Both the position numbers and the translations under genes were made by a program. From an uncultured Bacilli bacterium (GTDB lineage: Bacteria; Bacillota_I; Bacilli_A; RF39; UBA660), in NCBI GenBank assembly GCA_944363655.1, contig CALVUU010000070.1, positions 1 to 12,115 on the forward strand: a DNA stretch of 12,115 nucleotides. The letters run 5' to 3'. The notes under the pieces were generated by a model. The model worked only from the letters and a program-made list of their open reading frames with translations, ran no database searches and was not told the origin of the DNA. Shown here in pieces: positions 1-11,736 of the stretch; within the stretch, counting starts at the first letter, position 1, and every line of letters begins with the position of its first letter.

Positions 1-702
1 TTATTCCAAGAAGTATAGTAGGATTAGATTTAGGGATAAAAGATATAATAATAACTAGTTACAATGAAAAAATAGAAAATAGTTTATCTTCATTAGAGGT
101 AAAGAATAAAATTAAAGGATTACAAAAGTGGCTTTCTAGATGTAAGTCAGGAAGCAAAAATAGATATAAAGTAAAATTAAAACTACAAAGAGCATATATG
201 AAACTTAAAAACATTCGTAAACATTTAATACATGATGTAACCAATAAACTAGTCAAAGAAAATGATATCATAGTAATGGAAGATTTAAACATAAAAGGAA
301 TGTACCAACTACATTCTATAGCCAAATCCTTAACTAATATTCCACTGGCAGAGATAAAACGAGTCTTGGAGTATAAATGCAAGTGGCAAAATAAGAAATT
401 ACTTACCATAAATAGATATTATCCAAGTAGCCAAGAATGCTCAGTATGTGGATATCAAAATAAGGAAGTAAAGGATTTAAGTATAAGAAGTTGGGAATGT
501 CCAGAATGTGGTTCATTACATGATCGTGATATAAATGCTAGTATAAATATAATGTTTGAGGGTTTAAAAATGTATGTAAATAGTTTATAATATAAATAGA
601 TGAACAAATTTAGTAGGGTGGCGACCATCCGAAATTGGTCTATGGAGAGTCCGATGGACTCTGTGAAGTAGAAACGCCTTGTAGTGATACAAGGATAGTC
701 AA
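1..702 (+). mobile_element. IS200/IS605-type element, 3' part only (tnpB plus right end)
   Basis: The window opens inside an IS605-group element. Visible parts are the catalytic half of tnpB and about 110 bases of non-coding right end. The right end has three consecutive hairpins (623-640, 646-662, 677-694) and finishes in TCAA at 699-702, the tetranucleotide used as right-end cleavage site by IS608-type HUH elements. I therefore place the element end at 702, with an uncertainty of a few bases. The left end, any tnpA, and the TAM/target tetranucleotide lie outside the window. Elements of this group carry no terminal inverted repeats and make no target duplication, so none is expected. Confidence 0.8.
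3..590 (+). CDS. tnpB: RNA-guided endonuclease TnpB, C-terminal part (5' end off window)
   Basis: TnpB is the omegaRNA-guided DNA nuclease of IS200/IS605 elements and the ancestor of Cas12. The frame is open to the left edge; 195 residues are visible, roughly half of a usual TnpB. All three RuvC motifs are present: GLDLGIKD near the edge (Asp codon 27-29), VMEDLN (Glu codon 279-281) and DRDINAS (Asp codon 528-530). A zinc ribbon, CxxC at 441-452 (CSVC) and CPEC at 498-509, lies between the last two. Nothing in the visible part is broken, so the nuclease may be active. The first in-frame ATG, at 198, lies downstream of the RuvC-I motif and cannot be the true start. The gene ends at TAA, directly followed by the structured right end. 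Confidence 0.93.
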   Translation: MPRSIVGLDLGIKDIIITSYNEKIENSLSSLEVKNKIKGLQKWLSRCKSGSKNRYKVKLKLQRAYMKLKNIRKHLIHDVTNKLVKENDIIVMEDLNIKGMYQLHSIAKSLTNIPLAEIKRVLEYKCKWQNKKLLTINRYYPSSQECSVCGYQNKEVKDLSIRSWECPECGSLHDRDINASINIMFEGLKMYVNSL

Positions 703-6497: not shown

Positions 6498-6811
6498 ATG
6501 AAGAAAAAGATTATATTTAGTATATTAATTTTATTAGTTTTATCATTAAGTATATATTTTTTTGGTAATAAGAAAAATTATCAAATAATAAGTAATGAAA
6601 AGACAAAACAAATAGTTAATTCTAATACTTTAACTATGATGTATGAAACAGAAGCTGGAAGTGGAGAATATCAAGTAGTTAGTGGCACGGCATGGCCTCA
6701 AGAAGGCTACATTTTTAATGAAAGATTATCAGGTTGTGAAAATGGGGGAATGTTATCGTGGAATAGTGATACTAAAAGAGTAGTGATGCAAACTAATAGC
6801 AGTGATAAGTG
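6498..6811 (+). pseudogene. Surface protein gene (unit 1), 5' fragment cut by IS110
   Basis: This fragment codes for 104 residues: a positively charged start, an uncleaved-looking membrane anchor (about 5-22), then a beta-rich module with TMMYETEAGSGEYQV, WPQEGYIFN, SGCENGGMLSW and MQTNSSDK. Such modules normally go on with 'DKCYxYFD'. Here the frame hits TGA (6810-6812) made by the insertion joint, while the missing CYIYFDKE reads in frame from 8411. AGGAG (6487-6491) lies 6 nt before the ATG. A short membrane-anchored peptide may still be made from the intact promoter. The rest of the gene is annotated at 8411-9280. Confidence 0.9.
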
Positions 6812-6824
6812 ACATTCTAAGATT

Positions 6825-6830
6825 TGTCAA
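6825..6830 (-). promoter_or_regulatory. Right-end half (-35) of the IS110 circle-junction promoter
   Basis: The minus strand reads TTGACA 13 bases from the element's right end. When the ends are joined with one 2-bp core, it falls 17 bp from TATAAT at 8403-8408. In the inserted form it points out of the element towards 6811 and has no partner there. Confidence 0.75.
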
Positions 6831-6846
6831 GAGTAAATTTTTATGG

Positions 6847-6926
6847 TATTATATACATGCCAAAAAGACACAAAATTTAACTTTTTTTTAAAAAATTAAC
6901 ATTTGTGTTTTATTTGGTATATAATA
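6847..6926. repeat. Imperfect 80-bp inverted repeat in the IS110 right end
   Basis: Outer arms TATTATATAC (6847-6856) and GTATATAATA (6917-6926) are perfect complements. An inner pair around ACACAAA (6868-6874) and TTTGTGT (6902-6908) continues the stem, and the centre is T8 followed by A6. It sits just downstream of the recombinase stop and may end its transcript or fold at the element's end. Confidence 0.6.
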
Positions 6927-6949
6927 TTAATGTAGTTATGTGGTGATAA

Positions 6950-8131
6950 CTATTTATTAATTTGTTTGCAAACTGCAAAAATTTTTCTGAGTAATTTTGT
7001 AGTTGTAGCAATTGTAGCAACGTAATGATGTTTACCTTCGTTACGTTTTTTTCTGTAATAAATTTCAATGTCGTTTTCTTTTTTACTTAGTGATGTAATT
7101 CTTACGATATTCAAAGCTGATAAAAATAGTATATGTCTCATATATTTGTTTCCCGATTTAGAAATTGGTCCATGAGTATTAATGGTTTTTCCAGATTGTT
7201 TAATTGTTGGATCTAATCCACAATAAGCAGTTAGTTCTTTTATATTATTAAAACGATTAATATCTCCTAGTTCTGCAATGATTATTGCTGTTGTAAATTC
7301 ACCAATACCATTTATAGAATTAATAGGAGTGAAATAAGGCGTGCATTTTGCAAAATTTATAAGTTTTTCTTTTACAATATTTATATTATTTTGCTGATTA
7401 TTTATAATTTTTGCAATCTGAGATAGATTAGCAACAATTTCATCATTATAATTAACTGATGGATAAGAAGTGTTTGCAATCTCTTTTATTTTCGTTGTTT
7501 TGGATTTCCAATATCTAAATTTTTTTCTTTTAAAGAAAGTTTGTAAAAAGCACAGTCTTGTTTTCGAAATTATTTCAGGATGTGGATATTGCGAAATAAA
7601 TGATAAGGCAATATCAGAATAAACCATATTTCCAACAAATATTTTTTCATATTCAGGAAAACATAAATATAAAAGATTTTTGTACCTATTTTTCAAATCA
7701 ATAGTTGATTCACTTAAAGCAAAATATTGTCTCGAAAGAGCATTCATATTAAGGTATAATTCTGAAGGCTTAACGACTTCTCTGAAAGTATGTGTAAAAA
7801 ACAATTCAGCTAAGGAAAGACAGTCTAATTTATCAGTTTTAGTTTTTCTTAAAGAATTTTTATGATTTTTTGAATATAATGGATTAATCACATAAACTTT
7901 AAAATGATTTTCCAAGAAAAACCTTTCTACAGGTCTATGATAAATTCCTGTAGATTCCATTATTACAGAAACATCTTTAATATTTAATTTTTTAATTCTA
8001 ACAAGTAAAGATGAAAAATCTTGTTTAGAATGATTAAATTCATATGGGTCGATTAGAACTTCACCACAAGAACTAATTAAAGTTCCCATACTTTTTTCTT
8101 TGGCTACGTCGATAGCCAGTACATAATGCAT
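6950..8131 (-). CDS. IS110-family DEDD recombinase (transposase)
   Basis: IS110 enzymes are bridge-RNA-guided recombinases with an N-terminal RuvC-like DEDD domain and a C-terminal Tnp domain bearing a catalytic serine. The 393-residue product shows AIDVAK (D8), VIMESTGIY (E59) and KTDKLD (D100, D103) for the DEDD set. The Tnp domain has INGIGEFTTAIIIAELGD, LTAYCGLDP, KQSGK (conserved serine about 313) and KSGNKYMRHILF. A coiled helical stretch joins the two domains. Everything needed appears intact, and the length is normal. I chose ATG 8131 because AAAGGAG lies 7 nt upstream; an ATG at 8137 is only one base from that SD. It is antisense to the gene it interrupts. Confidence 0.95.
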   Translation of the reverse strand: MHYVLAIDVAKEKSMGTLISSCGEVLIDPYEFNHSKQDFSSLLVRIKKLNIKDVSVIMESTGIYHRPVERFFLENHFKVYVINPLYSKNHKNSLRKTKTDKLDCLSLAELFFTHTFREVVKPSELYLNMNALSRQYFALSESTIDLKNRYKNLLYLCFPEYEKIFVGNMVYSDIALSFISQYPHPEIISKTRLCFLQTFFKRKKFRYWKSKTTKIKEIANTSYPSVNYNDEIVANLSQIAKIINNQQNNINIVKEKLINFAKCTPYFTPINSINGIGEFTTAIIIAELGDINRFNNIKELTAYCGLDPTIKQSGKTINTHGPISKSGNKYMRHILFLSALNIVRITSLSKKENDIEIYYRKKRNEGKHHYVATIATTTKLLRKIFAVCKQINK

Positions 8132-8304
8132 AAGCATTCTCCTTTCCATGCGATTGGGCTCTAAAACTTAATACTCCTCATCACGCTTGTTATATAAGAA
8201 TAAATCCTCACATTCTTAAACTAGGAAAATAAAAAGAAAAGAGCTAGGCCGTCATTCGATTTGGATACAAGACCCCTGTTACGCATTGCCTGAACTCAAT
8301 CGCG

Positions 8305-8342
8305 ATTTTTTACTTATTTCTTATAAGAAATAAGTAAAAAAT
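8305..8342. repeat. Perfect 38-bp palindrome in the IS110 leader
   Basis: Bases 8305-8323 and 8324-8342 are exact reverse complements with no spacer, centred on TTATAA. T-runs come first and A-runs last on both strands, the reverse of an intrinsic terminator. It begins immediately downstream of the minus-strand TATAAT at 8343-8348, so it could be a hairpin at the 5' part of the leader RNA or a protein site over the start of transcription. Confidence 0.85.
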
Positions 8343-8370
8343 ATTATACAGTAAATTGTAAAAGTTTCAA
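8343..8370 (-). promoter_or_regulatory. Internal promoter of the IS110 recombinase leader
   Basis: On the minus strand TTGAAA (8365-8370) and TATAAT (8343-8348) are 16 bp apart. It would allow leader and recombinase transcription from the integrated copy, independent of the circle junction. The start would lie within the 38-bp palindrome. Confidence 0.6.
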
Positions 8371-8402
8371 TATATTTCCACTTCCTTCATTTACTACTCG
8401 GT

Positions 8403-8408
8403 ATTATA
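8403..8408 (-). promoter_or_regulatory. Left-end half (-10) of the IS110 circle-junction promoter
   Basis: TATAAT on the minus strand lies 2 bases inside the element's left end and reads into the leader. In the integrated copy the sequence 17 bp upstream (8426-8431, host gene) is not -35-like, so the promoter should be strong only after circularisation. Confidence 0.75.
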
Positions 8409-8410
8409 CG

Positions 8411-9280
8411 TGTTATATTTATTTTGATAAAGAATCTGATATAATTTATCTAGCAGATTATATTATAAATAATGTTTATACAGGGGTAGATGGAGATAAT
8501 GGATTATATTATCATGATGGAGTAGGAAGTTATACCAATGCTAATCAAGAAGCGGGAGATAATAGCTACCGTTATAGTGGAGCAAACCCAAATAACTATG
8601 TTTGTTTTGGATCGGATGCTGCAAGTTGTCCCAATGATAACCTATATAGAATAATAGGAGTGTTTGATAATCAAGTAAAGTTAATTAAGAGTACAAGCAT
8701 AAGCAATTACTCTTGGAGTGGTTCTAGTTCAAATAATAGCAATAATTGGAGTGCAAGTACATTAAATACTGAAACATTAAATAAAACATATTTAAATGGA
8801 TTAGGAAACGCATGGAGTAGTAAAATAGCAATAACAAATTGGAAAGTAGGAGGAAATTCATTAAATAATATAAGAGATGTTCCGGTAAAAACAGCATATC
8901 AAAATGAAATAGAAAGTCCAGCAGATTCAACAACATATAGTGCAAAAATAGGATTAATGTATGTCAGTGATTATGGCTATGCAACAAGTCCCCAAAATTG
9001 GGATATGGATTTGTATGATTATAATGATATTACCAGCAACAATAACTGGTTAGTCACAGGGGCATATGGAGAATGGTCAATAACTCGCAATTCAGGCGAG
9101 TCTGGTTCTGCATTCATGATTTATAACGAAGGTAATGTGGTTCTTAATTTTGTTATCAGCCCTGCCGTCGTTCGTCCTTCATTTTATTTAGAACCTAATG
9201 TAGTACTAAATGGGAGTAGCGGTAGTTCTGTCGATCCGTATCACTTATCTATCGCGACAGATAATATCGCCTATCAGTAA
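8411..9280 (+). pseudogene. Surface protein gene (unit 1), 3' fragment
   Basis: The frame is open from the IS110 edge and gives 289 residues up to TAA; joined to 6498-6811 it makes 393 aa. It begins CYIYFDKE, then LADYIINNVY, LYYHDG and NSYRYSG (also in the 9721 protein), a two-cysteine CFGSDAASCPNDNLYRIIG segment, LKLIKS-like VKLIKS, and a C-terminal block with KIGLMYVSDYGYA, NNWLVTGAYGEW and AVVRPSFYL...DPYHL. The last block resembles DUF6273-like surface domains (from memory, moderate confidence). There is no SD or natural start in this fragment, so it is probably not translated. Bases from about 9080 on are visibly richer in G+C, with codons such as CGC, GCC and GTC, than the first part. 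Confidence 0.88.
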
Positions 9281-9694: not shown

Positions 9695-9720
9695 TAAGAA
9701 AATAAGGAGTGGATAGTTTT

Positions 9721-11736
9721 ATGAATCAAACAAAATTAAATGATAAGAAAAAAAGATTAATTATAATTATTAGTGTTTTAGTAGTATTTATCGGAATAAC
9801 TCCTGCATATGTTGTAGGACAAATATCAACTGGTACCATAGGTAATGCAAATGTAACAGCTGATACAACAGATAATTTAGATTTTAGTATTGATAAAGAT
9901 ATTAATTTAAATCCAACTCAGTTTAATGTAGTTGAAGGTGGTGGAGGACTAAGTGATACAGCAGTTGGTACAGCAACATTACTTGCTAATTCAACTAATG
10001 ATACAGCAACATTTAATTACTATGTATATTTTAATATAAGAACTAATAATTATACTTATACAACAGAAGATTATAAACCAGAGATAGTACTTACTATAAC
10101 AGATCCAATAGGTCAACCAGTTACAGAAGTAAGTGGGCTTAGTTATGTAACAGTACAAAATGCTGATGGAAGTGAAGTAAGTGGTTTTGATATAACAACT
10201 AAAAGTGGTTTAATTAATATAGCAAGTAATTATGAAATAACATCTAATTCAAGTACAGATGCAACAGAACAAAACTGGATATTTACAGTAACATTTATTA
10301 ATCTTACAACTAATCAATCAGCAAATGGTGGAAGTACATTAGATGCAGAAATAATATTAAGTAAAAATGAAAAAATTAATTTTGCAAATTATATAGTAAA
10401 TAATGTATATGTTGAAGATGGGGTAAATAATTTATACTATCATGATGGTCAGGGAGATTATACTAATGCAGAGTTAGAAGCAGGGGATAATTCCTATAGA
10501 TATAGTGGTGGTAATTATGAAATTGCTGATGCATATAAGAGCAGTTATAATGATATTAGTTCCATGATTGATTCATTAACTTTTATTGGCATTTATATTA
10601 ATGGTGTGGTTGTTAATATGGCAGGAGAAAGTGGAGAATACAATATGCTTTTAGAAATTGCAAAAGAATATTGTACCACTGTTAGCAATTGCAAACCTGA
10701 AGAAATTGTTGCTGATGCTATAAATGATTCGGAAAATTTACAAGTTAATGAATTTATTGATTTTTATGAAAAAGGCGTAATGTCAGGAAAATATTTTAAT
10801 GTTTATGGATTTTCTTTTAGTGACAAATTATATGTGCCAGTTTATGACGAGTATAACTCTGAAAGCAATATTTATACGTATAATAATAATTATACAGATG
10901 ATATAAGTAGAGTTTTGGCACAATCGGGATATTTAAATGAAATTGTGAAAAATTATGTATGTTTTGGAAGTGATGAAGAAACATGTCCAGCTGATAATCT
11001 ATATAGAATAATTGGAGTTTTTGATAATGAAAATAACGGAATATACCGTTTAAAGTTAGTAAAAAATGATTATGCTGATAATAATTTATTAGGCACAGAT
11101 GGTGATTATGCCGGAAAATATTCCAATTTTTTTAGTGATTCAACTAATTATAAAGGCGAGAAAAAATTGAATGAAATTTCAGTATATTATTGGAATTTTA
11201 GTAATGGAATTAATAATTCATCTAATAATTGGACTGAAAGTAGATTAAATACAATCAATTTAAATACAAATTTTATTAATTATTTGGGAACAGAATGGTC
11301 TGAAAAGATTTATGATAATGAATGGAATCTTTCCAGCATTTCTCTAAACACTGGGAACTCTAAAAATTTATTTGATGAAGAATTTGATAATGTAGTAGGT
11401 ACATATAAATCTAAGGTTGCTTTGATGTATCTTTCGGATTTTTTATATTCATTTGGTAATATATATTGGACTGATAGTTTTTTGGATACCAATAAAGGTG
11501 ATTATGCTAGTGCTTTAAGTAACAATTGGATGTTCATGGGATTAGCAGAGTATTTATTAACTACCGATAATTATGAATATAGTGAAAATGCAATTTATCT
11601 TCATTGGGAAGGTGCATGGATTAATGTGCCTGTAAGTCATTGTGTAGCTGTTCGACCTGTATTTTATTTAAATTCTGATGTCGAACTAGCTGGAGGAACA
11701 GGCTCTTTAAATGATCCGTATCGTCTCATGGTATAA
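9721..11736 (+). CDS. Modular surface protein: TasA/camelysin-like N-domain, inserted block, shared C-domain
   Basis: The 671-residue protein is exported: NDKKKR, then a hydrophobic helix (13-33). Residues 36-214 look like the TasA/camelysin-type beta-sandwich of Gram-positive surface fibres (GTIGNANVTADTTDNLDF, ATLLAN, VTFINLT); this is pattern recognition, not proof. Residues 218-263 (NYIVNNVY, LYYHDG, NSYRYSG) and 411-671 (NYVCFGSDEETCPADNLYRIIGVFD ..., VALMYLSDF, NNWMF, VAVRPVFYL, DPYRL) match the broken unit 1 protein in order. Between them lie about 146 extra residues (264-409) with two cysteines. I chose ATG 9721; an in-frame GTG at 9709 overlaps the SD. No LPXTG or other wall-sorting signal ends the protein. 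Probable role: surface or matrix protein under control of the divergent XRE regulator. Confidence 0.85.
   Translation: MNQTKLNDKKKRLIIIISVLVVFIGITPAYVVGQISTGTIGNANVTADTTDNLDFSIDKDINLNPTQFNVVEGGGGLSDTAVGTATLLANSTNDTATFNYYVYFNIRTNNYTYTTEDYKPEIVLTITDPIGQPVTEVSGLSYVTVQNADGSEVSGFDITTKSGLINIASNYEITSNSSTDATEQNWIFTVTFINLTTNQSANGGSTLDAEIILSKNEKINFANYIVNNVYVEDGVNNLYYHDGQGDYTNAELEAGDNSYRYSGGNYEIADAYKSSYNDISSMIDSLTFIGIYINGVVVNMAGESGEYNMLLEIAKEYCTTVSNCKPEEIVADAINDSENLQVNEFIDFYEKGVMSGKYFNVYGFSFSDKLYVPVYDEYNSESNIYTYNNNYTDDISRVLAQSGYLNEIVKNYVCFGSDEETCPADNLYRIIGVFDNENNGIYRLKLVKNDYADNNLLGTDGDYAGKYSNFFSDSTNYKGEKKLNEISVYYWNFSNGINNSSNNWTESRLNTINLNTNFINYLGTEWSEKIYDNEWNLSSISLNTGNSKNLFDEEFDNVVGTYKSKVALMYLSDFLYSFGNIYWTDSFLDTNKGDYASALSNNWMFMGLAEYLLTTDNYEYSENAIYLHWEGAWINVPVSHCVAVRPVFYLNSDVELAGGTGSLNDPYRLMV

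Follow-up and report, generated by a model that had tools for sequence, protein, structure and literature searches.

The window, that is, the whole stretch of 12,115 nucleotides analysed here, contained an insertion sequence that, judged by its recombinase and its ends, is a member of the IS110 group. The element was read on the minus strand and interrupted a host gene on the plus strand. The features of the locus were located as follows:

6498..6812, plus: interrupted host gene, 5' part (paralogous family, motif S-D-K-C-Y-V-Y-F-D)
6810..8412, minus: IS110-group element including both copies of the core dinucleotide, ends set by relatives and uninterrupted sites
6812..6820, minus: right end of the element (RE, left donor), TTAGAATGT
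6950..8149, minus: recombinase of up to 399 amino acids (Pfam, NCBIfam and solved-structure sequence matches)
8150..8338, minus: predicted bridge RNA body with putative ends, comprising 5' hairpin, closing stem, target stem-loop and donor stem-loop
8177..8195, minus: 3' strand of the donor-binding loop, assigned from its recurrence in leaders with differing flanks; contains the two segments of the original prediction
8182..8185, minus: right donor guide (RDG) CGTG, complementary to core plus left end (CACG); overlaps the second of those segments
8210..8216, minus: left donor guide (LDG) AGAATGT, assigned from agreement with the element's own right end
8252..8261, minus: right target guide (RTG), AAATCGAATG in the window and usually NNNNNATG in relatives; follows the right flank
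8277..8287, minus: left target guide (LTG), AATGCGTAACA in the window and ATTATANCA in most relatives; follows the left flank
8297..8303, minus: 5' arm of the closing stem (helix 2), GCGATTG, pairing with CAATCGC at 8150-8156
8309..8338, minus: 5' hairpin of the bridge RNA, from the fold of the window strand
8343..8370, minus: candidate internal promoter TTGAAA-16-TATAAT, by direct reading
8403..8410, minus: left end of the element (LE, right donor), CGTATAAT
8413..9280, plus: interrupted host gene, 3' part (CYIYFDKE...)

The interrupted gene and its neighbour at 9709-11736 (plus) had no Pfam or NCBIfam match; the neighbour, read from its protein, appeared to belong to the same family as the interrupted gene. 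At 198-590 (plus), the window also held the C-terminal part of an OrfB_IS605/TnpB-like protein with a Cas12f1-like TNB domain.

The original prediction, which was made from the letters of the window, had assigned the element to the IS110 group, and three kinds of match agreed with it. The recombinase matched the Pfam families DEDD_Tnp_IS110 (1.3e-27) and Transposase_20 (8.5e-23), the NCBIfam model of the IS110 family RNA-guided transposase (209.1 bits, cut-off 140) and, by sequence, the solved structures of IS621 (2.7e-14) and ISCro4 (9t56, 2e-12). When the protein was aligned to IS621, the D, E, D and SK-G stretches of the two lined up, and we take these residues to be catalytic. The true start of the recombinase is probably one of the ATG codons just after GGAAAGGAG. 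A weak match to a C-terminal domain shared with TIGR-Tas was also found (NCBIfam NF052498, 38.8 bits, below the cut-off of 100; TIGR-Tas, PMC12045711).

The ends of the element were fixed from relatives that share LE and RE at other places and from uninterrupted sites. On the minus strand, the element ran from CGTATAAT (8410) to TTAGAATGT (6812), with the core CA on either side (8411-8412 and 6810-6811), so that element and one core copy measured 1601 bp. The CA was common to both flank junctions, as expected when an element inserts at a short core and duplicates no longer stretch of its target, and this was supported by the uninterrupted site in the sister genome of relative L102 and by uninterrupted paralogs of the gene in the window. 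The non-coding ends comprised ~260 nt before the open reading frame on the left and ~140 nt after it on the right. When the ends were joined on paper, TTGACA (6825-6830) stood 17 bp from TATAAT (8403-8408), which would then be the -10 of a circle-junction promoter; a junction promoter formed on circularisation has been described for IS110 elements in the available part of Durrant 2024 (PMC11208160). A second promoter may be formed by TTGAAA-16-TATAAT, which directly precedes the 5' hairpin and most of whose -10 columns were invariant or nearly so in the aligned leaders.

Relatives were collected by one scan of genome contigs (26 loci) and by whole-genome DNA searches, which gave matches in 31/59 relatives (many of them short), 10/30 genomes in the genus, 38/386 in the family and 34/385 in the order, the sets overlapping; with a distant member as query, 4/392 phylum genomes and 12/395 class genomes had matches. 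After deduplication, 67 records remained, and 51 leaders were aligned. Seven records were left out by name, namely L062, L063, L064, L065 and L069 (28-34% identity) and L120 and L127 (truncated or rearranged), and nine further records had no leader. The structure alignment comprised 31 of the 49 located leaders, with the seven of the AATTACA clade described below, L139, L140, L013, L130, L134, L092, L100, L059, L136, L102 and L145 excluded. The distant relatives L197, L199, L202, L203 and L204 were read by eye only.

The leader very probably encodes a bridge RNA, as had been predicted, in view of the covarying guides and the structure. In the 31 leaders, 54 pairs in 8 helices were paired in 89.9% of cells, and changes on both sides were seen in 16 pairs (9.7 in shuffled controls) and 62 cells (22.1), whereas only 44-59% of cells paired when the structures were slid by 1-3 columns. 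One of the five structure measures, the number of further pair types, showed no excess over its control (149/500). The closing stem was paired in 93.9% of cells with three pairs changed on both sides; the 5' hairpin was a hairpin-like stretch whose sequence varied among relatives, with only 66.1% of cells pairing in aligned columns. The consensus fold contained the target stem and the donor stem, and the RNA of the window alone folded at a z of -2.75. An Rfam search over 6500-8700 returned no family up to E 0.1.

The two donor guides followed the ends of their own elements. LDG was identical to the own right end in 37 of 41 elements through five variants (AGAATGT, AGATTGT, AGAAAGT, AGATAGT and AGATAAT); the exceptions were L013 (by one letter), L139, and L100 and L118, which had lost leader letters there. 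In L118, a deletion in the leader seems to have fused the donor loop straight onto the left side of the target loop. RDG was complementary to the own core plus LE in 48 of 49 elements (all except L139), and here core and end covaried with the guide in three variants, CACG with CGTG, CATG with CATG, and CAAG with CTTG. The upstream TTATA, a possible extension of RDG, never varied informatively among the leaders and had no covariation support. By this agreement, LDG and RDG are the donor guides of an IS110 bridge RNA. The equality of AGAATGT with the right end of the element had been noticed in the original prediction and stood; its position was shifted by one letter, as the minus-strand AGAATGT lies at 8210-8216 and 8211-8217 reads AAGAATG.

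The target loop was found at 8252-8287 (minus), 60-110 bases nearer the left end than the donor segments, in the form of a stem-loop AGGC...GCCT with an inner hairpin GGGT...ATCC. Its guides stood in the order left then right, which the original prediction had given correctly. Agreement between guides and flanks was compared with shuffled partners over the seven non-core letters of LTG and six letters of RTG, in tests that treat the elements as independent and so overstate the independence of related insertions. In the clade of at least 56% identity, 187/210 letters matched on the left (30 insertions; 172.4 expected) and 91/132 on the right (22 insertions; 63.0 expected), and neither value was reached in 20,000 shuffles; right positions 5 and 6, taken alone in this clade, showed no excess over the shuffles. 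For all elements, the counts were 298/336 on the left (48 insertions; 233.6 expected) and 150/204 on the right (34 insertions; 84.6 expected). LTG equalled the left flank at 9/9 letters in only 26 of 48 insertions, and poor fits between guide and flank were seen in L041, L097 and L131. Elements with near-identical leaders at different places had repeated their target: the right guide CATTTTAA was found at right flanks CATTTTTA (L039) and CATTTTAT (L102), and among further junctions of genome G027 with this guide, the right flank was CATTTTAA in L081 and, fitting less well, CATTAAAA in L089.

One clade with an altered loop had an altered target, AAATTACA|ATTTG. Its members (L112-L116, L118 and L126, ~46% identity) had guides that matched this target closely on both sides. 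Right ends of this kind were also present in L120, L127, L141 and L142, and each of the seven copies of this AATTACA type had one in-frame TAA in the recombinase. No promoter was found at the sites of L112 and its kin, and gene starts lay on the right side in 2/11 cases of the AATTACA clade, hence no promoter claim is made for it. The target of L139 differed again from both the promoter and the L112-type targets. In the distant L203 and L204, the right guide ATAGGTTTG agreed with the right flank CAAACCTA..., and the right ends of these two adjoined tRNA-Ser and tRNA-Leu genes.

The original prediction had placed the target-binding loop at 8177-8195, with its halves pairing with the two flanks of the window copy. 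The sequences that it named were present: TGTTATAT occurred at 8188-8195 and again at 8411-8418, and CTCATCAC lay at 8177-8184 and GTGATAAG at 6802-6809. The two matches, 8/8 exact and 8/8 with wobble, stood in the right order and exceeded chance in a naive test that ignores the freedom to choose strands, offsets and flanks: when the 261-nt leader was shuffled 3000 times with its dinucleotides kept, an exact left match arose in 29 shuffles, a right match with wobble allowed in 62, and both in order within 60 nt in one. The test also ignores two built-in similarities: the donor guide contains the core complement, and a likeness to ATATAACA is usual for left targets in this family (6 or 7 of 8 letters in 43 of the 48 left flanks that could be read). 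Among other junctions of the window lineage, L072 matched on the left (8/8) and L078 on the right (7/8). Against this reading, the segment was almost unchanged in elements with unrelated flanks, an outcome that the original prediction had itself named as refuting. Its 19 letters, ATATAACAAGCGTGATGAG, were present at 19/19 in 26 of 51 leaders and at 17/19 or more in 45, with differing flanks; the latter included all 33 leaders of at least 56% identity, and the lowest were L130 and L134 with 11. Besides the window, none of the 47 readable left flanks matched ATATAACA at 8/8 (10 reached 7), and none of the 34 readable right flanks exceeded 4/8 for the second segment. The segment also covaried with the element's own left end, and folding with covariance put all of the earlier segments on the 3' strand of the donor stem. 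L072 and L078 matched because they are located in paralogous genes with the same codons, and the junctions of L031 and L085 matched less. The assignment of 8177-8195 as the target loop was rejected on these grounds and is very improbable. The three-base spacing and incomplete core pairing, which had been flagged with the prediction, were real warning signs. When a leader is matched to the flanks of a single insertion, the result can be misleading even if just 1 shuffle in 3000 does as well, and guide calls need covariation with flanks and ends. A guide RNA in the right end, as in the IS1111 group, is scarcely conceivable for this element; the DEDD recombinase superfamily is common to that group, but here the right non-coding end is short (only ~140 nt, against ~260 on the left) and the covarying guides sit in the left leader.

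The target of most relatives was a promoter sequence. The reverse complement of ATTATANCA is TGNTATAAT, which we take to be an extended -10 promoter element. Of the 47 distinct insertions, 39 entered the promoter count, which excluded the window, L139 and six members of the AATTACA clade. An exact TGNTATAAT (TGnTATAAT) was found at 32 of the 39 and a form with at most one mismatch at 37, in AT-rich hosts in which TATAAT-like strings are common. A start codon with a ribosome-binding site opening a frame was found downstream in 29/39 (search range 5-60 nt), including two (L145 and L097) with frames of 20 and 32 codons cut by the contig end; among the ten without a start, L004 and L123 had flanks below 150 nt. 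The starts lay 15-55 nt after the -10, with a median of 22. Such a start was found at 415/13600 random positions in the same host DNA (3.05%) and in 0/27 cases on the opposite side of the element. Of eight further TGNTATAAT strings within these flanks, four had a gene start, so the letters themselves largely mark promoters. Ten downstream open reading frames, hand-picked from 25 and some of them chosen for familiar-looking starts, all had Pfam domains, including ribose isomerase (rpiB), ribosomal protein L9, HIT, ABC transporters and RlmN. The rejoined flanks of L102 matched the uninterrupted rpiB promoter of the sister genome G465 at 93% over 162 bases, with TG-C-TATAAT at the site. The distant L013, L130 and L134 (38-41%) had TGATATAAT, and L199, read by eye, had TGTTATACT.

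The promoter sites could in principle arise without RNA guidance, if the recombinase or the circle preferred AT-rich, melted or RNA-polymerase-occupied DNA and so yielded TGnTATAAT. The hosts are AT-rich and promoters are easily melted, but we consider this improbable: the flank base at the free n of TGnTATAAT followed the guide in 17/30 insertions (10.3 expected; 3/4000 shuffles), which a mere AT-rich preference does not explain, the right guide followed the right flank (0/20,000 shuffles), and the clade with the altered loop had the correspondingly altered target AAATTACA|ATTTG. A different question is whether the promoter location benefits the element, as the target loop might follow letters that happen to overlap promoters. 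The gene starts at half of the other TGnTATAAT strings are in line with such letters predicting a promoter by themselves, the left end contains CGTATAAT so that flank and end together form ATTATANCACGTATAAT, and ten of the 39 insertions had no start (two of them with the short flanks mentioned above). However, the aim was kept over 38-74% recombinase identity, which suggests usefulness, and the starts clustered at a narrow distance on one side only (29/39 against 0/27). A location without benefit is thus somewhat doubtful, though it deserves weight. The reading that we hold with high confidence is that of a bridge-RNA-guided IS110 element whose donor loop reads its own ends and whose target loop, in most of the clade, spells an extended -10.

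In the proposed mechanism, the leader would encode a two-stem-loop RNA of ~190 nt. Its first loop, the target loop (8252-8287), would pair with the host site on both sides of the CA core, and the second (donor) loop, which holds the segments of the original prediction, with the joined ends of the element. In most of the clade, the target loop would be programmed on TG-n-TATAAT, read on the opposite strand, so that the element would land in the TG of a promoter just upstream of ordinary genes and leave TGn-TATAAT next to its left end. Comparison of the relatives shows the two loops, their covariation with ends and flanks, the promoter location and one empty promoter site; that the pairing causes the site choice and that the RNA is made, we infer.

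The window copy lacked the traits of the promoter-aimed class. Its site, TGTTATATT, was inside a coding gene, and its guide read TGTTACGCA; the target guide of its lineage read GCGTAACA and GAATG. The readable junctions of the lineage (4 left, 7 right) were all in one paralogous gene family, at (D/E)-K-C-Y codons. The family had DNA matches in 19/30 genomes of the genus, with up to 20 per genome. From the best matches, 30 paralogs were fetched, and the site was readable and uninterrupted in 28 of them (20 TGTTATG, 4 TGCTATG, 3 TGTTATA and 1 TGTTACG). The fit to the window's own flanks was poor. Its right guide was the worst of 34 compared (3/8 letters), followed by that of the sister copy L092 (4/8), and its left guide matched the own flank exactly at TAACA, beyond which came one mismatch and two G-T wobbles, so that this copy alone would not prove the target rule. 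With TGTTATGT as partner, the left guide paired at 8/8, two of the pairs being G-T wobbles, and GAATG paired with AAATG with one wobble; within these guide stretches, the window's own site gave one mismatch on each side. Among the loci compared, no host sequence fitted the window guide letter for letter convincingly, the best reaching 14/18. These data suggest, with moderate confidence, that the window lineage was re-aimed from promoters to a coding motif, whereby an altered target loop would direct insertion to the Cys-Tyr codons of a multicopy gene family.

The left end of the element may have a further role at promoters. At least 4/6 letters of the -35 consensus were present at 16-18 bp in 46/48 leaders, compared with 16.6% of shuffles; the outward hexamer, which stands at 17-18 bp from the -10 of the host, was mostly TTTACA or TTTACT. 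When 26 sites were rejoined, the -35 belonging to the host was no better than shuffled sequence. The -35-like motif varied just as little in the clade that targets something other than a -10 and, by direct reading, sits in an inverted repeat; for these reasons the outward -35 was set aside and is not counted as an established feature. The arrangement suggests that the -35-like hexamer of the left end and the host -10 may form a hybrid promoter that would keep the gene on, and the insertion would presumably be harmless to the host gene. We put forward promoter capture as a tentative proposal, appreciable but short of an even chance: the clade would be programmed on the extended -10 of sigma-A and would swap the upstream half of the promoter for its own -35-like hexamer, so that the gene is kept running, and the window lineage would have given up this aim and turned to codons of a repeated family through changes that largely preserve G-T wobble pairing. 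If true, such capture would be RNA-guided and self-repairing.

Aiming at promoters has a counterpart in the eukaryotic element Ty3, which is directed to tRNA promoters and is guided by protein. Within the IS110 group, the machinery itself is known: bridge RNAs, two loops, guide order, junction promoter and natural re-aiming are described in the available parts of PMC11208160 and PMC11187229. According to the former, IS621 resembles the present element in its DEDD plus serine recombinase, in the RNA in the left end, where a 5' stem-loop is followed by two internal loops, the target loop ahead of the donor loop and left guides ahead of right guides, in a donor guide more conserved than the target guide, and in the junction promoter formed when circularised. 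The core is CA here and CT in IS621, a candidate internal promoter precedes the RNA here, unlike in IS621, and where IS621 targets REP elements, the present clade targets the extended -10, with a coding motif in its place in the window lineage (PMC11208160, available part). ISEc21, an IS110-type element with a seekRNA, is likewise RNA-guided to a conserved coding motif of a repeated gene family, the codons round the second D of IS3-family transposases, and is thus a precedent for the Cys-Tyr codons of the window lineage with a different target; promoter-aimed relatives, as in the present clade, are not mentioned in the available part of that account (PMC11187229). In the open-licence journal papers searched, we found no description of IS110 elements whose guide is programmed on promoters.

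A promoter core is strongly conserved and present in many copies in each bacterial genome, so that a guide spelling it would not exhaust its targets and ought to function in many hosts that share the sigma factor. With such an aim, an insertion is placed and oriented relative to the gene with single-base precision. The clade further provides natural pairs of loop and target, including one re-aimed clade, on which the pairing rules of bridge RNAs, such as wobble and the length of the right guide, can be tested. Spelling a promoter would offer a new solution to the problem of remaining mobile across species while being site-specific.
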